Positions 1-7,704 of a DNA stretch of 7,704 bases are shown here, piece after piece. Numbering within the stretch: the stretch's first letter is position 1; the number at the start of each line of letters is the position of its first letter. Source of the stretch: Chloroflexota bacterium. GTDB lineage: Bacteria; Chloroflexota; Anaerolineae; Promineifilales; Promineifilaceae. The DNA is taken from assembly GCA_008501785.1 (NCBI GenBank), contig QQUD01000337.1, forward strand, positions 1 to 7,704. Reading direction: 5' to 3'. The translations under genes were made by a program, and so were the position numbers. The notes beneath the pieces are model-generated. The model did not search any database. It was not told where the DNA came from and saw nothing but the letters and a program-made list of their open reading frames with translations.

Positions 1-2087
1 CAACACCACTACCGACCAACACACCAACACCACTACCGACCAACACACCAACGCCACTACCGACCAACACACCAACACCACTACCGACCAACACACCAAC
101 GCCGATTCCGACCAACACACCAACGCCACTACCGACCAACACGCCAACACCACTACCGACCAACACACCAACGCCGATTCCGACTAACACATCTACGCCA
201 ATACCGACCAACACACCAACGCCGATTCCGACCAACACACCAACACCACTACCGACCAACACACCAACGCCGATTCCAACCAACACACCAACCCCGATAC
301 CGACCAACACGCCAACGCCGATCCCACCAACGCCGACCTTCACACCGACTCCAATTCCACCGACACCAACGGCAACCAACACACCGCCACCACCACCGCC
401 GACGGCTACACCGACGAATACGCCACCACCACCAACAGCAACGCCTATCCCAACATCACTAATCTATGTCAGTTCCAGCACCAGCGGTACGGTTGGTAGT
501 GTCGTCTTCAGAGATGAAGATATCCTGGCCTACAATCAAACCAGCGACACCTGGTCGATGATTTTTGATGGTTCGGATGTTGGTGTGGGCAGCAGTGATC
601 TCAAAGGCTTTTTGCTATTGAATGATGGCAGCATCCTGATGGCATTCGGGAGTTCCTTTAATTTGTCTGGTGTGGGTTACGTGGATGAATCGGACATTGT
701 CCAATTCTCCCCCACCTCAGTCGGCACAAACACAGCAGGCAGCTTTGAGATGTTCTTTGATGGTGGGGATGTCGGTCTGAGCGGTTACAGCGAAAACATT
801 GATGCGATTGGAGCAACGCAAGACGGCCGTTTAGTCATCAGCACATTTGGCTCCTTCAGTGTCAGCGGCGTATCCGGTCGGGACGAAGACCTGCTAGTTT
901 TCAATGCCACCAGCTTCGGCTCATCAACCAGCGGCAGCTTTGACCTGTACTTTGATGGGTCAGACGTTGACTTGACCAACTACAGTGAAGATGTCGAAGG
1001 AACCTGGATCGATCCCACAACGGATGAAATCTACTTGACGACAAAGGAAAACTTCTCTGTCTCCGGTGTCAACGGCGATAAGTCGGACATCTTCATCTGC
1101 GCCCCTGGTTCATTGGGAAGCAGCACGAGTTGTACATTCAGCGCATTCTGGGATGGATCTGCAAAAGGGTTTGCTGGCGAACGAACAGACGGCATTAGTA
1201 TTGGCGACAACGCCACCATCATTGTGCCAGGACCGGGGCCAACACCAACCAGCACGCCGATTCCACCAACACCAACCAGTACGCCAATTTCACCGACGCC
1301 AACCAGTACGCCGACACCTATACCCGGTGACGCCATCATCTATGTCAGCTCCAGCTCTAGTGGCACGGTGGGAGGCGTCTCCTTTAATGACGAAGATATT
1401 GTGGCTTATGATACTGCCAACAACACCTGGTCGATGGTTTTCGATGGTTCAGATGTTGGTTTGGGAAGTCAAGACCTCACAGGCTTTTACTTCATGGATG
1501 ATGGCAGCATTTTGATGACTTTCAACCGCCTCTTCACTTTATCTGGTGTAGGTGAAATCGATGATTCTGACATCGTCCAATTCATCCCTACCACAACGGG
1601 ACCAAGCACGGCAGGGAGCTTCAACTTCGCATTCGACGGTTCAGATGTCGGTCTCACCAGTAATGGAGAAGACATTGACGCGATTGGCATGGCACCAGAC
1701 GGTCGTTTCGTCATTAGCACCGTCGGTTCCTTCTCAGTTAGCGGTGTTTCCGGTAAGGATGAAGACCTGTTGATATTTAATTCAATCAGCTTCGGTCCAT
1801 CAACCAGCGGCAGTTTTGACCTTTACTTTGATGGGTCAGATGTTGGCTTGACTACCCGCAGTGAAGATGTGAATGGAACATGGATTGATGTAACAACTGG
1901 TGAAATCTACTTAACTACGACAGGTGATTTCTCTATCCCCGCTATTAATGGAGATAGATCAGACATCTTTATCTGCGTGCCTAGCTCGCTTGGAAGCAGC
2001 ACGAGTTGTACGTTTAGCCTCTTCTGGGATGGGTCTGCCAACGGGTTTGGCGGTGAAAAACTAGATGGGTTTTCAATAGCCAAATAA
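1..2087 (+). CDS. Pro/Thr-stalk protein with two tandem four-unit repeat domains (5' partial)
   Basis: The frame is open from base 3 to the TAA at 2085-2087, so the true start lies upstream of the window; the first ATG, at 558, is inside a domain and is not the start. In order: a TPxPTNTP stalk (3 to about 458), domain 1 (about 459-1209), a Pro/Thr linker (about 1228-1328) and domain 2 (1335-2084). The two domains align without obvious gaps and look roughly three-quarters identical by eye. Each holds four units of about 65 residues, with a recurrent [12 protein letters not shown] motif and an acidic DEDI/SDIV-type motif, suggesting blades of a beta-propeller-like fold. The only cysteines seen are a pair spaced C-x11-C in the fourth unit of each domain, which would fit a disulfide in an exported protein. 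Repeats of this type occur in large Chloroflexota surface proteins, but I know no assigned function. No sorting signal is visible after the final FSIAK. The signal peptide, if present, is outside the window. Confidence 0.9.
3..314 (+). repeat. 24-bp tandem repeat encoding a TPxPTNTP stalk
   Basis: Thirteen consecutive 24-bp units begin at 3, 27, 51 and so on up to 291. Each encodes T-P-(L/I)-P-T-N-T-P. The third codon varies between CTA, ATT and ATA. The unit at 171-194 is degenerate and ends in Ser (TCT). After 314 the repeat decays into irregular Pro/Thr/Ala sequence with runs of four to six prolines, up to about 458. The array continues off the left edge, so its true copy number is unknown. 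Such Pro/Thr linkers are common spacers in exported Chloroflexota proteins. Confidence 0.95.
1239..1316 (+). repeat. 27-bp repeat encoding a PTPTSTPIP interdomain linker
   Basis: Two full 27-bp units (1239-1265 and 1266-1292) and a third partial one (1293-1316) encode [13 protein letters not shown] segments between the two repeat domains. The unit length (9 residues) and the Ser-containing motif differ from the 8-residue stalk repeat upstream, so the two linkers expanded independently. Confidence 0.85.
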
Positions 2088-2584: not shown

Positions 2585-3082
2585 ATGTCTGAACCTTTTT
2601 TAGCTGAAATTCGCATTGTGGGGTTTAACTTTGCCCCGCGCGGCTGGGCGTTTTGTGATGGGCAAATCTTGCCAATCAATCAAAATCAGTCGTTATATTC
2701 CCTTTTAGGTACGACTTATGGTGGTGACGGTCGTACCTCTTTTGCGCTGCCCGATATACGTGGTCGTGTCCCTATTCATGTTGGCAACGGCCACCGCCAA
2801 GGTCAAAAAAGTGGAGAAGAGACGCACACATTGAGCGCAGCCGAGATGCCGCAGCATAAACACGCGATTCAAGCGTCAGCCAACACTGCAAATTCAAATA
2901 GTCCAAGTGGTCATGTGCTCGCACAATCAATCCCGCTTTACAGTGAACCAACGAATCTAGTAAATATGAGAAGCGGCACGATAACCAATGTCGGAGGAGG
3001 GCAAGCACATAATAACATGCAACCTTGCCTTGCCGTCAATTTCTGTATCGCATTGCAGGGGCTTTTCCCATCGCGTAATTAA
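2585..3082 (+). CDS. Phage tail collar domain protein (MdpB-like), paralog 1
   Basis: A 165-residue protein of the microcystin-dependent/phage tail collar family (Tail_Collar, as found in short tail fibre proteins). Family marks: FAPRGWAFCDGQ (16-27), LLGTTYGGDGRTSFALPDIRGR (40-61), the H-x-H pair H91/H93, the NNxQP motif (143-147) and the C-terminal FPSR. It is shorter than its two neighbours because the stretch after residue 69 is trimmed: it lacks their PGLxxRRLG segment. No signal peptide or membrane segment is seen, so export would need a non-Sec route or a phage-tail-like particle. The start is fixed by AAGGAG (2571-2576), 8 nt before the ATG. It is first in a four-gene operon. The family's true role in bacteria is not settled, and an adhesin or particle-tip role is inference. 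Confidence 0.92.
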   Translation: MSEPFLAEIRIVGFNFAPRGWAFCDGQILPINQNQSLYSLLGTTYGGDGRTSFALPDIRGRVPIHVGNGHRQGQKSGEETHTLSAAEMPQHKHAIQASANTANSNSPSGHVLAQSIPLYSEPTNLVNMRSGTITNVGGGQAHNNMQPCLAVNFCIALQGLFPSRN

Positions 3083-3086
3083 GGAG
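3080..3086 (+). promoter_or_regulatory. Shine-Dalgarno overlapping the stop codon of paralog 1
   Basis: TAAGGAG combines the TAA stop of the first tail-collar gene with the AAGGAG ribosome-binding site of the second, whose ATG is at 3093. This arrangement favours translational coupling and decides against the longer in-frame extension starting at 2988, which would overlap the upstream gene. Confidence 0.85.
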
Positions 3087-3092
3087 AAAAAA

Positions 3093-3614
3093 ATGTCAGA
3101 ACCATTTGTTGGTGAAATTCGAATGTTTGCCGGAAACTTTGCCCCGCGTGGCTGGGCATTTTGTGATGGACAACTGCTCGCCGTCTCTCAAAATGATGCG
3201 CTGTTTTCCTTATTGGGTACCATCTATGGTGGCGATGGACGGACAACCTTTGGCCTGCCCGATATGCGCGGCCGGTTTCCCATTCATGCCGGAGATGGGC
3301 CAGGGCTAAGCCCCCGGAGATTAGGTGCTAAGTTTGGCACAGAAAAAGAAACGCTTACGGTTAATCAACTTCCAAGTCATTCACATGCGCCAATAAAAGG
3401 GAGCTCTAACACGGCAGATTCCGGAGACCCGGCTGGCAGAGTGCCAGCACAAGGGACGGTCGGCGATCTATATGCCAACTCTACACAAGCGGTAAATTTT
3501 GCTTCATCAGCCGTTACTAATATTGGTGGCAGTCGATCCCATACATACTTGATGCCGTTTTTGTGTATCAATTTTATTATTGCCTTATTTGGCATCTATC
3601 CATCGCGTCAGTAA
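3093..3614 (+). CDS. Phage tail collar domain protein (MdpB-like), paralog 2
   Basis: A 173-residue tail collar protein, second in the operon, beginning 10 nt after the upstream stop. It shares MSEPFVxEIR, FAPRGWAFCDGQLL (16-29), LLGTIYGGDGRTTFGLPDMRGR (40-61), PGLSPRRLG (70-78), H96/H98, and FIIALFGIYPSR at the C-terminus. It departs from the family where the usual HNNxQPF is replaced by SHTYLMPF (149-156). The loss of both Asn and the Gln suggests a changed role for this copy. Residues 99-148 are Gly/Ser/Asn-rich and are the least similar part among the three paralogs. No signal peptide is visible. A structural or adhesive role alongside the other two paralogs is inferred. Confidence 0.92.
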   Translation: MSEPFVGEIRMFAGNFAPRGWAFCDGQLLAVSQNDALFSLLGTIYGGDGRTTFGLPDMRGRFPIHAGDGPGLSPRRLGAKFGTEKETLTVNQLPSHSHAPIKGSSNTADSGDPAGRVPAQGTVGDLYANSTQAVNFASSAVTNIGGSRSHTYLMPFLCINFIIALFGIYPSRQ

Positions 3615-3618
3615 GGAG
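3612..3618 (+). promoter_or_regulatory. Shine-Dalgarno overlapping the stop codon of paralog 2
   Basis: TAAGGAG merges the TAA stop of paralog 2 with the ribosome-binding site of paralog 3 (ATG at 3625), the same architecture as at 3080-3086. It sets the start at 3625 rather than the in-frame ATG at 3580 inside the upstream gene. Confidence 0.85.
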
Positions 3619-3624
3619 AAAATA

Positions 3625-4146
3625 ATGTCAGAACCATTTGTTGCCGAAATTCGAATATTTGCTGGAAATTTTGCCCCGCGCGGCTGGGCATTTTGTGATG
3701 GGCAACTGTTGCCAATTTCACAAAACACAGCCTTGTTTTCACTGATTGGGACGACATATGGTGGAGACGGCCGTTCCACCACCGCACTGCCAAACCTACA
3801 AGGTAGTGCGCCAATGCACCCCGGGCGTGGCCCTGGATTGACATCGCGCAGGTTGGGTCAAAGAGGCGGCGTAGAATTCGTTACCCTATCTGAAGCCCAA
3901 ATGCCTAACCATACCCATACGTTGACAGCGGCTAACGCACGTGCTGGTGTGGGATCGCCAAACGGAAATGCATTTAATAATTCCATTGGTGAAACAGCTT
4001 ATCAGACAACTGCATCAAATCTTGTCACGATGGCATCAGCAATGGATCAAAATGAAGGGGGTAGCCAAGCACACAACAATTTACAGCCTTTCATAGCCCT
4101 CAACTTTATCATTGCCTTAGTGGGACTCTATCCCTCTCGAAGCTAG
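3625..4146 (+). CDS. Phage tail collar domain protein (MdpB-like), paralog 3
   Basis: A 173-residue tail collar protein, third in the operon and again 10 nt after the preceding stop. It has FAPRGWAFCDGQLLPI (16-31), GTTYGGDGRSTTALPNLQG (42-60), PGLTSRRLGQRGG (70-82), H96/H98, a complete HNNLQPF (150-156) and FIIALVGLYPSR. The usual LPDxRGR is altered to LPNLQGS, losing the Asp and both Arg residues. Its first 90 or so nucleotides are close to those of paralog 2, including the leader AAGGAGAAAA, which points to tandem duplication or gene conversion. No signal peptide is seen. It may co-assemble with paralogs 1 and 2, but this is inferred from synteny alone. Confidence 0.92.
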   Translation: MSEPFVAEIRIFAGNFAPRGWAFCDGQLLPISQNTALFSLIGTTYGGDGRSTTALPNLQGSAPMHPGRGPGLTSRRLGQRGGVEFVTLSEAQMPNHTHTLTAANARAGVGSPNGNAFNNSIGETAYQTTASNLVTMASAMDQNEGGSQAHNNLQPFIALNFIIALVGLYPSRS

Positions 4147-4156
4147 GAGCATAAAC

Positions 4157-4396
4157 ATGCGACGAAGAATTGAAAAATACGCAATTTTTTATAATGTTGC
4201 CGCAAACGAAGGGCACATCCTCTTCCAACTTGATGATAATATTGAAGGGCAAGGCACTGCCACCCTTTTACTTGATTCACCACAAGAAGGCATGTTAGTC
4301 CTGGATATTTTGCGGAACGAACAGCCAGTTTATTATGATGAAGACCATCAAATTATCATGACTGGTCTAGAATTTACCGGCGAAGGCGAGGAGTAG
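4157..4396 (+). CDS. Small acidic protein of the tail-collar operon, unknown function
   Basis: A 79-residue protein, basic at the N-terminus (MRRRIEK) and acidic at the C-terminus (GEGEE). It contains alternating hydrophobic stretches suggesting beta strands (KYAIFYNVAA, TATLLLD) and a helix-like segment with LRNEQPVYYDED (52-63). It has no signal peptide, transmembrane segment or cysteine. AGGAG (4145-4149) overlaps the TAG stop of paralog 3 and lies 7 nt before the ATG; the gap between genes is again 10 nt. I recall similar short proteins beside tail-collar genes in other bacteria, but I know no Pfam name or function. Its position as last gene before a terminator suggests a chaperone or accessory role for the tail-collar proteins, which is inference only. 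Confidence 0.8.
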   Translation: MRRRIEKYAIFYNVAANEGHILFQLDDNIEGQGTATLLLDSPQEGMLVLDILRNEQPVYYDEDHQIIMTGLEFTGEGEE

Positions 4397-4409
4397 AACC
4401 ACTCGTCAC

Positions 4410-4457
4410 TGAGCTGATTCGAAACAAAGTGGCATTTTGTCTCGAATCAGCTCATTT
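4410..4457 (+). terminator. Strong hairpin terminator after the tail-collar operon
   Basis: A perfect 13-bp inverted repeat pairs TGAGCTGATTCGA (4410-4422) with TCGAATCAGCTCA (4442-4454). After one mismatch the stem extends inward with ACAAA (4424-4428) and TTTGT (4436-4440), leaving a 7-nt loop. A short T run (4455-4457) and then AT-rich sequence follow. It sits 13 nt after the small gene and only about 30 nt before the methyltransferase start. It may fully terminate, or set a lower expression level for the downstream genes. The T tract is short for a strong intrinsic terminator, so an mRNA-stabilising or processing hairpin is an alternative. Confidence 0.7.
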
Positions 4458-4485
4458 AAATAAATCCCGTTTTGATTAATATCTT

Positions 4486-5532
4486 ATGTCCTTAGAACTG
4501 TTACAAACCAGTACAAACAGATTGCTTAACAGTGATGATCCTGCAATGATTTGCTCAGCTCTGGAAAACATCCACATCATCTGTTCAAAGATTACCGGCG
4601 TGCGCGGTGATGTCTTAGTGGAACGTCACTTTAAACAAACATTTCTAGACGGCGGGAAGGCAATCTCACCCTATTTAGCAGCACGGTGTCTATTAGACCC
4701 CCTTCGTACCGTACGATTCTTGCGTGGCATTTATGCCGGTATCCACGAAGGGTTTCGCCGTTTTCCCGGAGAGCGAATTCATATTGTCTATGCTGGATGT
4801 GGCCCTTATGCAACATTGTTGCTGCCATTAACCACGCAGTTTACACCTGAACAGATACAATTGACACTCATCGATATACACAAACCCTCCATTGATGGTG
4901 TCCGCACACTTATTGAAACACTCGGCCTGGAAGCGTACATTTACAAATGTGTACAAACAGATGCCGTCACATACCAACACCCACCTGAGATACCATTGCA
5001 CATGGTCGTTAGCGAAACCATGCAAGCTGCATTAGCGCAGGAGCCGCAATTGTCAATCATGCGCAACTTTCTACCGCAGCTACACGAGAACGGGCTTTTT
5101 ATTCCGGAAGAGATTGTGGTTGAAGCTTCTTTAAGCAGATCAGAAGAAGAAGATGTTGGATGTCGTACCCACCGAGATGAATTCGATTATCCGGTTGGTC
5201 GAGAAATAGAAATGCAGACGGAACGGATACCATTGGGGCCAATTATCACGCTTAATTCAGCGTCAGCACATCCCGATATGATTGGCTATGAGTGGGAAAC
5301 TATTCCGCTGGCAACTGTTGAGGTGCCACCAAGAGATGTGCAGTTCGATCAATTTTTACTATTAACAACGGTTTCCATATTTGGCCCTTACGGGTTTGCT
5401 CCATATGATTGTGAATTAAGTTTTCCACTGCGCTTATATGATCTAACCAAGGTAGCAAGTGGAAGTCGAATCCATTTTTCTTACGTGTTTGATCGCAAGC
5501 CAGGCTTGCATCATGAACTACTATCTGGATAA
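4486..5532 (+). CDS. Class I SAM-dependent methyltransferase, possibly protein arginine methyltransferase-like
   Basis: A 348-residue protein. IHIVYAGCGPYATLLLP (98-114) is the glycine-rich SAM-binding motif I with G104-C105-G106. LTLIDIH (127-132) gives the acidic residue D130 after strand 2, and TDA (158-160) fits motif III. SETMQAALAQE (176-186) places two Glu residues (E177, E186) nine apart, followed by a helix and NGLFIPEEI, which parallels the double-E loop (SEWMGYCLFYE) and following segment of PRMT1-type enzymes. The C-terminal 140 residues look beta-rich, as in the PRMT barrel, and total length is close to PRMT1; a convincing THW loop is not seen. The ATG at 4486 has an in-frame TAA just upstream (4477) and no clear Shine-Dalgarno; M21 is a later alternative. 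The genes downstream are GNAT and DUF6916. The methyltransferase fold is well supported; arginine specificity is inference. Confidence 0.8.
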   Translation: MSLELLQTSTNRLLNSDDPAMICSALENIHIICSKITGVRGDVLVERHFKQTFLDGGKAISPYLAARCLLDPLRTVRFLRGIYAGIHEGFRRFPGERIHIVYAGCGPYATLLLPLTTQFTPEQIQLTLIDIHKPSIDGVRTLIETLGLEAYIYKCVQTDAVTYQHPPEIPLHMVVSETMQAALAQEPQLSIMRNFLPQLHENGLFIPEEIVVEASLSRSEEEDVGCRTHRDEFDYPVGREIEMQTERIPLGPIITLNSASAHPDMIGYEWETIPLATVEVPPRDVQFDQFLLLTTVSIFGPYGFAPYDCELSFPLRLYDLTKVASGSRIHFSYVFDRKPGLHHELLSG

Positions 5533-5551
5533 ATTTTACAAGACAATTAAT

Positions 5552-6067
5552 ATGAAACAATTAATGATTACCCTGCGCTCGATTACACCCGATGATAAAC
5601 TATTTCTTTGCCGCTTGTATGCCAGTACGCGAGAAGATGAACTATCTGTAGTTCCTTGGAGCGATGCAGAAAAAGAATCGTTTTTAACGATGCAGTTTAA
5701 CGCTCAGCATACCTATTATCAGGAACAGTTTAAGCAAGCTGAGTTTCTTGTTGTTGAACTAGATGGTGAACCAATTGGGCGTCTTTACATTGATCGGCGT
5801 CAAGATGAAATTCGTTTGATTGATATCGCATTACTTACGAGCCATCGGCGTAAAGGAATTGGCTCCATGCTGCTAAAAGATTTGCTCACAGAAGGATCCG
5901 CAGCAAATTTGCCCGTACGTATCCATGTAGAACACAACAACCCCGCACTTAGCCTGTATACACAACTAGGCTTTAAACATATTGAAGATCAAGGTGTTTA
6001 TTTCTTGATGGAATGGTCACCAATAAACAATAAAAATTTAAAAAGTAAGGAATTAGAAAATGCTTGA
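5552..6067 (+). CDS. GNAT-family N-acetyltransferase
   Basis: A 171-residue protein using the ATG at 5552, 19 nt after the methyltransferase stop. The frame is open further upstream, but those starts lie inside the methyltransferase gene and precede the domain. The GNAT fold is recognised by the N-terminal ITLRSITPDD strand, FLVVELDGEPIGRLYID (65-81, strands 4-5), the acetyl-CoA pyrophosphate loop SHRRKGIGSMLL (97-108), and NNPALSLYTQLGF (129-141), the typical motif B end. The C-terminal tail (NNKNLKSKELENA) is Lys/Asn/Glu-rich and overlaps the next gene by 8 nt, so the two are probably translationally coupled. The substrate is unknown. Because GNAT genes recur near tail-collar and DUF6916 genes, acetylation of a cassette protein is possible but not shown. 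No strong Shine-Dalgarno is visible, so coupling to the upstream gene is likely. Confidence 0.9.
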   Translation: MKQLMITLRSITPDDKLFLCRLYASTREDELSVVPWSDAEKESFLTMQFNAQHTYYQEQFKQAEFLVVELDGEPIGRLYIDRRQDEIRLIDIALLTSHRRKGIGSMLLKDLLTEGSAANLPVRIHVEHNNPALSLYTQLGFKHIEDQGVYFLMEWSPINNKNLKSKELENA

Positions 6068-6365
6068 AAAGTTAACCAGTACTGACTTCAAATCATTATT
6101 GAATGAAACATTCCAGGTTAAATTGCAATCAGAAGAACAGTTTTCTGCTGATTTAATTGAGGTAACAGAAGTGGGTCAGGAACCAAATGAAGAAAATAGT
6201 ATTATAAGGCGTGCATTTTCTGCGATCTTCCACATTAAGGGAGACACCTTTTTCCCTCAGCAAATTTGTAGTGTGGAACATGAGACATTGGGTTCGTTAA
6301 CCTTGTTTTTGGTACCACTGGGACCTGCTAAGGATGGTACACGTTACGAGGCTATGTTTACATAA
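6060..6365 (+). CDS. DUF6916 family protein
   Basis: A 101-residue protein that I recognise as DUF6916-like from the N-terminal LTSTDFKSLLNETFQV (5-20), the LIEVTEVG strand (32-39), the middle FSAIFHIKGDTFFPQQ (53-68), and the C-terminal LFLVPLGPAKDGTRYEAMF (82-100). The family is small, beta-rich, and of unknown function, and is commonly found beside phage-tail-collar genes. No signal peptide is seen. TAAGGA (6046-6051), 8 nt before the ATG, supports the start. The gene overlaps the GNAT stop by 8 nt and ends the second gene set. One cysteine (C70) is present. A scaffold, immunity or chaperone-like partner role for tail-collar proteins is speculation. Confidence 0.8.
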   Translation: MLEKLTSTDFKSLLNETFQVKLQSEEQFSADLIEVTEVGQEPNEENSIIRRAFSAIFHIKGDTFFPQQICSVEHETLGSLTLFLVPLGPAKDGTRYEAMFT

Positions 6366-6635: not shown

Positions 6636-7704
6636 ATGCAGCATGCAACACCACAAAAACCTCTGCGTCGCAAAAAGTTTCGACGGATTTCCTCTATTTT
6701 ATTGTTTATTAGTATGGTATTTGGCTTAACGGCCGTTCCCCTTGCCTTCTCCGTTCCCATTCTCACAGCAACCAAAACCGATGTGTTGCTTGTTGATAAT
6801 GATACCGATAACGTCGCTGATCCTGGCGATACCATTCGCTATACAGTCAACCTCCTCAACAGTGGTACGATGGATGCCACGAATGTTGATTTCACTGATA
6901 CCATTGATGCGAATACAACTTTAGTCGCCGGTAGCGTAAAAACGACACCGATTGCGCGCCATGACTCCTACGCAGCCACCGGCAATGTAGGCATTTCAGT
7001 ACCGGCAGGAAGCGGTGTCTTGGTAAACGACAACGACCCTGATGGTACAACGCCAACGCTGACCATTGTTAGCTCGCCTTCCACAAGCGCAAACGGTGGT
7101 AATGTGGCAGTTGCTAGTGATGGTAGCTTTACTTACAATCCACCAGCCGGTTTTGAAGGAACAGATACCTTTTCCTATACAGTTCAGGACTCGGATGGAA
7201 ATCAAGACCCGGCAACCGTATCCATCTCTGTTTCCGATGTGATCTGGTTTATTGACAATAGCGCTGGAGGTGGCGGAGACGGCCGTCTTAGCTCACCCTT
7301 CAACAACATTGCTAGCTTCAACGCCATTCAAACCGGCACCGCACCAAATGCAAAAAGCGGAGACGGCATCTTCCTCTATACTGGCTCTGGTAATTACACC
7401 AGTGGTATTACCCTACTCAACAACCAGTTCCTTATTGGCCAAGGTGCAACGTCTAGCATCGAGAGTATCATAGGTATAACATTGCCAGCCCATAGCAATG
7501 CTTTACCGACGACTGGTGGCACACGTCCAGTCATTACCAACGCCGGTGGCAGCGGCATTACACTGGCAAGCGGTAACCTGCTGCGCGGTCTCAACGTTGG
7601 TAATACCAGCACCAGCAGTGGTGCAGGCATCAACGGCAGTAGTGTTGGTACCCTTACTATTCTAAACATGTCCATTACCGGGCAAGGGAAAGCTGTGGAC
7701 ATTA
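6636..7704 (+). CDS. Large exported DUF11/cadherin-like/beta-helix surface protein (3' partial)
   Basis: The frame has no stop from 6636 to the end of the window, giving 356 residues of a longer protein. Residues 1-20 are strongly basic (RRKKFRR at 11-17), followed by a hydrophobic core (about 20-38), a Sec signal peptide with likely cleavage near 39. Residues 46-101 (TKTDVLLVDNDTDN, ADPGDTIRYTV, NSGTMDATNV, FTDTI) match DUF11 repeats. Residues 108-200 (VLVNDNDPDG, GSFTYNPPAGFEGTDTFSYT) match the cadherin-like/tandem-95 type module. From 201 on (VIWFIDNSAGGGGDGR, GDGIFLYTGSGNY, LLNNQFLIGQGA) it resembles the opening of a parallel beta-helix, Gly/Ser/Asn/Thr-rich with no cysteine. These modules are typical of giant surface adhesins or sheath proteins. 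The rest, including any anchor, lies beyond the window. It appears to be a separate transcription unit from the DUF6916 gene. Confidence 0.9.
   Translation, partial: MQHATPQKPLRRKKFRRISSILLFISMVFGLTAVPLAFSVPILTATKTDVLLVDNDTDNVADPGDTIRYTVNLLNSGTMDATNVDFTDTIDANTTLVAGSVKTTPIARHDSYAATGNVGISVPAGSGVLVNDNDPDGTTPTLTIVSSPSTSANGGNVAVASDGSFTYNPPAGFEGTDTFSYTVQDSDGNQDPATVSISVSDVIWFIDNSAGGGGDGRLSSPFNNIASFNAIQTGTAPNAKSGDGIFLYTGSGNYTSGITLLNNQFLIGQGATSSIESIIGITLPAHSNALPTTGGTRPVITNAGGSGITLASGNLLRGLNVGNTSTSSGAGINGSSVGTLTILNMSITGQGKAVDI

Follow-up and report, generated by a model that had tools for sequence, protein, structure and literature searches.

Chromosomal genes annotated as "phage tail collar" or "tail fiber" are, in our impression, usually passed over as phage debris. 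The window analyzed here, a stretch of 7,704 nt from contig QQUD01000337.1 (GCA_008501785.1; all coordinates are positions in this window), raises the question whether such genes can belong to a bacterial system with enzymes of its own. It contains three tail-collar genes, followed by the genes of a small acidic protein, a methyltransferase, a GNAT acetyltransferase and a DUF6916 protein. An earlier note had described these seven genes as a cassette. The open reading frame list and family scans verified that they lie at the claimed places, all on the plus strand and in the claimed order:

2585..3082, + strand, tail-collar protein 1, 165 residues, MSEPFLAEIR...GLFPSRN (PF07484, E 1.9e-28)
3093..3614, + strand, tail-collar protein 2, 173 residues, MSEPFVGEIR...GIYPSRQ (PF07484, E 5.5e-31)
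3625..4146, + strand, tail-collar protein 3, 173 residues, MSEPFVAEIR...GLYPSRS (PF07484, E 1.2e-27)
4157..4396, + strand, acidic protein, 79 residues with 16 D/E and 5 K/R, no family assigned
4486..5532, + strand, methyltransferase, 348 residues, PRMT-like by predicted fold
5552..6067, + strand, GNAT acetyltransferase of the cassette-associated subfamily (PF00583, E 2.7e-14; start at 5552 assigned by reading)
6060..6365, + strand, DUF6916 protein, 101 residues, six-stranded beta fold in the model (PF21880, E 2.7e-23)

The neighbourhood proves to be real and conserved, and its specificity exceeds what the earlier note had claimed. Its parts are supported in different ways: a specific comparative signal suggests the role of the GNAT, an association points to a role of the methyltransferase, and a recurrent exported neighbour argues for a role at the cell surface.

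A conserved gene unit across phyla

DUF6916 is a rare family. It was detected in 7 of the 240 genomes in the phylum of genome G001 (Verrucomicrobiota, G001 included), in 5 of 297 in the phylum of G002 (Proteobacteria, G002 included), in 8 of 296 Bacteroidota genomes and in 7 of 199 in the phylum of G003. The regions around these matches, 29 from 27 genomes, formed the DUF6916-anchored set, and our own DUF6916 profile scored in 26 of them. Collar genes were present in 28 of the 29 regions, the GNAT in 18 and the PRMT-like gene in four. Only L103, from genome G044, is free of collars, and its DUF6916 match in Pfam is below the cut-off. All 26 DUF6916 genomes that were searched contain collars (G044, with its match below the cut-off, lay outside that search), and 24 of the 26 are unselected, because G001 and G002 had entered via collar-bearing loci. 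Three regions (L098, L119 and L122) have two DUF6916 genes each.

The GNAT was present in 18 of the 28 collar-bearing DUF6916 regions, versus none of 60 collar loci from Bacteroidota that have no DUF6916 nearby (Fisher 5e-12); the 60 loci were picked by hand from the Bacteroidota collar listing, and most very short frames were left out. Such very short collar frames, of about 89-131 residues, occur in the Bacteroidota sample (e.g., in G627, G785 and G765) and lay outside the comparison. The PRMT-like gene was found in 5 of the 60 comparison loci and in 9 of the 26 DUF6916 genomes, four times at most about 2 kb from the cassette, twice at 10-19 kb and three times elsewhere. Collar triads together with GNAT and DUF6916 were also found on alphaproteobacterial plasmids, in Ruegeria TM1040, Phyllobacterium, Sinorhizobium meliloti and Rhizobium, when five of 17 matches were inspected.

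Taken together, the cassette is a conserved gene unit across phyla. Linkage to collar genes that spans phyla was seen for each of three partners: DUF6916, the GNAT subfamily and the PRMT-like enzyme. The recurrence that the earlier note had proposed was thus verified, and the opposite outcome that it had named, a neighbourhood confined to this genome or a linkage at random level, was checked and did not occur. The membership has to be narrowed: three collars, one GNAT subfamily and DUF6916 belong to the conserved set, the 79-residue protein does not, and the PRMT-like enzyme is part of some cassettes. In the 29 DUF6916 regions, gene order and orientation are shuffled.

Three collar proteins and the acetyltransferase

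The three window collars score 98.6, 106.7 and 96.1 bits against PF07484 (cut-off 24) and are 55-57% identical to one another. In comparison with collars 1, 2 and 3 of Ruegeria TM1040 they are 75, 75 and 71% identical at the same position, versus 51-59% at the wrong positions. Among 17 triads with GNAT or DUF6916, the same-order match was the best one in 74 of 136 pairs (chance 1/6, p 1e-23), versus 20 of 91 pairs among 14 other triads (p 0.2); the pairs are not independent. Against a strict order, an arrangement with the first two collars swapped, (1,0,2), was the best match in 38 of the 136 pairs. The three collars are distinct positional types, and from the pattern of positional identity it follows that the three different subunits of the triad form an old set, which was inherited or transferred as a unit.

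A PxHxH motif is present in all three window collars, with the HxH at positions 96 and 98, and it is kept in 99-100% of two collar sets that were compared. In T4 gp12 the HxH is the metal site of the trimer, and it may have this role in the window collars. Like this short tail fibre protein, the window proteins carry the collar domain by profile, and collar 3 weakly matches the gp12 structures 1ocy, 1pdi and 5iv5 by sequence. Unlike gp12, the window collars have only about 170 residues with little beyond the tip, they are three diverged paralogues, and they lie in a non-phage setting together with modifying enzymes. We infer that the three collars form a heterotrimer.

As the fold of the collars is one of phage tails, the cluster could be the remnant of a phage, a tailocin or a satellite that has acquired enzymes. 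We regard this as very improbable. The Pfam scan of nine window proteins, spanning 7.7 kb, yielded no phage family other than the collar and Gp10_C matches of the three collars, in agreement with the earlier note, so that the collars do not lie among phage tail genes as a phage short tail fibre gene would. None of 50,697 phage records matches the PRMT-like gene. Clustering of the neighbours in the 29 cassettes returned the four cassette families and only four additional clusters in three loci each, which were not scanned for phage families, and the three positional collar types are kept across phyla. We therefore lean, with some caution, towards a bacterial, non-phage cassette that is found in very distant bacteria.

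The next member, the GNAT, scores 53.9 bits against PF00583 (cut-off 20.7). Its nearest NCBIfam family is rimI (TIGR01575), with 42.8 bits against a cut-off of 86.4. It resembles the RimI-type N-alpha-acetyltransferases in that they are its best NCBIfam match and that a Ser/Ala N-terminus is its likely target, and it differs from them in scoring below the cut-off and in forming a separate subfamily at collar cassettes. One copy of this subfamily at E<=1e-45, located at the cassette, was found in 18 of the 26 DUF6916 genomes, and the next-best GNATs scored 1e-25 or worse. Two matches that were not part of the profile also lie near collars, one adjoining (G258, 3.5e-42) and one about 1.3 kb away (G180, 5e-34); a third, weaker match (G039) had no collar within its 16 kb.

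The second residue of the collars tracks the presence of the GNAT. Among the 43 GNAT-linked collars, which come from 19 loci and include the three of the window, 40 have Ala or Ser there, versus 15 of 135 unlinked collars, in which the residue is mostly Asp or Glu. Under a different start rule, applied first, the numbers were 39 of 43 versus 19 of 135, and with the earlier start rule the counts at the locus level were 19 of 19 versus 11 of 86, and 7 of 7 versus 8 of 43 in the Bacteroidota sample. The N-terminus counts are based on 187 collars, i.e., 268 collar open reading frames from which 84 were dropped (28 from duplicate loci, 24 without a FAPxGW-type motif, 20 without a start codon and 12 weak ones) and to which the three window rows were added; nine of the 187, linked to DUF6916 and without GNAT, are in neither group. 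Further alphaproteobacterial collars had Ala or Ser in 11 of 15 cases, Thr in three and Asp in one, and the collars of L190 and L191 had Ala or Ser in four of four. The second collar loci of G413, G951 and G210 (L193-L195) were considered as controls within one genome and had to be discarded, because their N-termini are off-motif.

Small residues at position 2 are those that are exposed by methionine removal. Because Ala/Ser tracks the GNAT, because methionine removal exposes these residues and because rimI is the best match, the data suggest that the GNAT is a dedicated N-alpha-acetyltransferase of the collars. The claim of the earlier note that paired enzymes modify the collars thus gained specific support for the GNAT, the linkage of which tracks a collar residue; for the methyltransferase it stands at co-occurrence alone.

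The N-terminal signature could also have been inherited with one collar lineage that travels with the GNAT, the substrate of which would then be a lysine, the exported protein, a small molecule or a polyamine. GNAT-linked collars do cluster on the collar tree, with 17 changes where shuffles gave 38.5, and the resolution of the tree is poor. GNATs can acetylate lysines as well as N-termini, as stated in PMC7339202. Three observations disfavor this explanation, and we consider it unlikely, though a serious competitor. First, on a collar tree built without the first eight residues, the test on all branches gave 17 independent pairs, of which 14.3 agreed and 0 opposed (median p 1e-4). Second, in 902 column-by-residue tests the two N-terminal columns were at the top with 13.3 and 12.2; the next non-N-terminal column reached 5.8, the strongest depletion elsewhere was -7.2 at position 116, Lys columns reached at most 3.6, and Lys and Arg together at most 5.5. 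Third, within single genomes the unlinked collars start with MEEF (G730) and MEGY or MDGT (G762), whereas two of three linked collars start with MA. Acetylation of lysines by the GNAT is possible, and no lysine column tracks the GNAT comparably.

Several results weigh against a dedicated N-alpha-acetyltransferase. When only well-supported branches were used, five independent pairs were left (3.6 agreeing, 0.3 opposing), too few to give the test power, and the result is not significant by itself. All 18 strong GNAT matches are rows of the GNAT profile, and thus they show that there are no extra copies and are not an independent discovery. The same is true for the six matches at E<=1e-45 in the 240-genome sample, all of which are profile rows, with at most 15 candidates per genome scored. 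Eight of the 26 DUF6916 genomes, some with fragmentary assemblies, have no member of the subfamily at E<=1e-45. The collars near DUF6916 without GNAT are mixed (four of nine with Ala or Ser, five without), and three GNAT-linked collars (L110, L111 and L114) start with MDPF.

The PRMT-like methyltransferase

In Pfam no family matched the methyltransferase above the cut-off, and NCBIfam and PHROGs gave no match at all. Residues 44-348 of its predicted model align to PRMTs, with a Rossmann domain followed by the PRMT beta barrel, and the protein is thus predicted to have a full PRMT fold. E177 and E186 are invariant in 34 aligned sequences, and they presumably correspond to the double-E loop glutamates of PRMT1. 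The window protein differs from PRMT1/5/6/7/9 and CARM1 in being only 9-15% identical in structure alignments and in lacking a THW string, as judged from a string search; the THW loop varies among PRMTs. A sequence profile of the family, run against the PDB, recovered no PRMT at E<=10, which speaks against the assignment. Relatives include P0028 (Anaerolineae) and P0030 (Chloroflexota), which hint at a host within the Chloroflexota. One relative (P0022, 426 residues) is an open frame that joins the PRMT-like protein to a GNAT; it is a single member and could be due to a frameshift or misassembly, and thus it was not used as evidence.

The methyltransferase-anchored set consisted of 80 of 113 matched loci. 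A collar was present in the stretch of 48 of the 80 loci, within 3 kb in 45 and within 500 bp in 39. In the last group 29 gene pairs are convergent, eight codirectional and two divergent. The collar linkage occurs in several separate clades of the methyltransferase tree, including all 37 rows of one Bacteroidota clade. In an evenly drawn sample of 296 Bacteroidota genomes, 80 had collars and 12 had a methyltransferase match. Collars were present in all 11 genomes with a full-length match, versus 69 of the 285 others (Fisher p 3e-7). The twelfth match is a fragment of 26 positions in G807, which has no collars (p 3e-6 with that row), and without the centre genome G012, which had entered via its methyltransferase, the numbers were 10 of 10 (p 1e-6); these p-values are uncorrected for kinship. 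Methyltransferase and collar lie within about 2.5 kb of each other in five of the 11 genomes.

The co-occurrence and the close linkage in separate clades argue against an alternative in which the PRMT-like enzyme serves independently in housekeeping or regulation and has a secondary link to collars. Other results favor this alternative, which we rate as a plausible one that falls somewhat short of even chances. In one mostly gammaproteobacterial clade, none of the 18 rows had a collar within 3 kb. A search of 21 genomes, mostly picked because no collar was near the gene, found collars in ten; eight gammaproteobacterial genomes with PRMT relatives have no collar anywhere, which also weighs against collars as general substrates, and three other genomes likewise have none. 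In this clade the substrate must, judging from gene content, be something other than collars. Furthermore, no collar residue tracks the methyltransferase convincingly in column tests and tree pairs. The C-terminal Arg (PSRN) was a candidate target, being present in 71 of 75 methyltransferase-linked versus 88 of 112 unlinked collars (p 0.003), and it was rejected because the link vanishes in tree pairs (2.8 agreeing versus 2.3 opposing). Arg at position 10 shows a weak excess over Lys in linked collars (6.5 versus 2.1 pairs, among 924 tests), which is a hint only.

The loci of the collar-free clade (L004, L008, L018, L025, L026, L051 and other gammaproteobacterial loci; the methyltransferase lies at about 10000, in L025 at 8291) were also inspected. 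Nine gammaproteobacterial loci have few common neighbours; one GGQ-containing upstream gene is common to L051 and L042, and L008 and L018 have a similar gene of 169 residues nearby.

Flanking genes, and the proposed export and function

Three features lie outside the seven genes:

3..2087, + strand, upstream TP-rich repeat protein, 5' end outside the window (open reading frame)
4410..4454, + strand, hairpin in the gap between the small gene and the methyltransferase gene (RNA fold, -26.5 kcal/mol)
6636..7704, + strand, start of an exported protein with DUF11 and Big_9/cadherin domains that runs past the window (TIGR01451, PF17963)

The collar genes are 10 bp apart, 19 bp separate the methyltransferase from the GNAT gene, and the 3' end of the latter overlaps the start of the DUF6916 gene by 8 bp. 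The gap between the small gene and the methyltransferase gene is 89 bp long, and its hairpin is strong (z -5.3; 0 of 200 shuffles equally stable), so that a single transcript is uncertain and the cassette may be transcribed as two units. The hairpin was absent from the list of a terminator scan. The 79-residue protein between the collars and the hairpin has no family in Pfam, NCBIfam or PHROGs scans, none of 124 loci contained a relative of it (best E 1), and thus it was rejected as a conserved member.

The collars have no signal peptide, as the earlier note had stated: they start with MSEPF and have no hydrophobic N-terminus by reading. The proposal of two exported flanking proteins holds for the downstream one, the N-terminus of which looks like a signal by reading; in the upstream one this part falls outside the window. 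The upstream protein contains two copies of a repeat of about 200 residues, again by reading. None of 124 loci contained a homologue of it at E 1e-5, and it is at most a candidate member of the cassette. Homologues of the downstream protein (E 1e-34 to 1e-54, profile/alignment) lie beside the cassette in five of the 29 regions (L098, L111, L113, L114 and L118). Each of these five genomes has a single full-length copy, located at the cassette, and G967 and G998 have full-length copies on other contigs; as the profile was built from the five homologues, this genome-wide result is descriptive. In four of the five opened plasmid loci, Azospirillum being the exception, the cassette adjoins a large protein that is annotated as "choice-of-anchor" or "putative Ig domain" and may be a counterpart of the window's protein. 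From the recurrent exported neighbour we infer a cell-surface role, with export and display.

The DUF6916 protein itself scores 82.3 bits against PF21880 (cut-off 27). A Foldseek search of its model against the PDB and viral libraries gave nothing at E<=0.001. The model resembles PilZ/YcgR-N, which may reflect a common barrel alone. The motifs by which PilZ proteins bind cyclic di-GMP (c-di-GMP) are RxxxR and [DN]xSxxG. Unlike YcgR-N and PilZ barrels, the window protein contains neither of them.

A link to twin-arginine translocation (Tat) was seen in some cassettes. DUF6916 copies in L098, L119, L120, L122 and L123 have Tat-like N-termini, and a Tat-signal protein of 213-223 residues lies beside the collar triad in three Bacteroidota cassettes (L111:11545-12210, L113:11933-12574 and L114:6265-6936). 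Against this route, the link was seen in a minority of cassettes, is partly read by hand, and is weak or absent near other collar loci, where Tat-like genes numbered 3 of 132 near and 3 of 384 far in one comparison, and 1 of 201 near and 3 of 202 far in another. In the Tat count of the cassettes, two of the eight near matches (L109 and L112) look false by reading, and without them p is 0.02.

On balance, we consider it slightly more probable than not that a non-phage cassette builds a complex of three collars, modifies the collars in the cytoplasm and has the modified complex exported. After removal of methionine, the GNAT probably acetylates the exposed Ser or Ala at the N-terminus of the collars, and the three collars would trimerise around a metal held by their common HxH motif. 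The small barrel of DUF6916 may escort or cap the collars, and the PRMT-like enzyme might methylate an arginine of a cassette protein. The folded complex would then be exported, in some genomes via a Tat-signal partner, and displayed with the large surface protein of the DUF11/cadherin/Ig type. A more daring version is speculative and in our view improbable: bacteria of several phyla would share one surface device, a metal-centred collar heterotrimer that folds in the cytoplasm, is capped by the GNAT, in some lineages methylated on arginine by the PRMT-like enzyme, exported folded together with a Tat-signal partner, which in some genomes would be DUF6916 itself, and mounted on a large cadherin/Ig-type surface protein as a recognition tip.

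A literature search of titles and abstract openings, with most subscription journals and bioRxiv outside its coverage, found nothing on DUF6916, on "tail collar domain" together with "GNAT", or on PRMT at collars. The genes point to an undescribed surface structure. The collar genes at this locus are a conserved system with dedicated enzymes, not debris, and they give context to a DUF family. The GNAT gains a testable substrate, and the alphaproteobacterial copies, in Ruegeria TM1040 and Sinorhizobium, make this part testable. The methyltransferase would add a bacterial family with a PRMT fold in a genetic setting that hints at its substrate.

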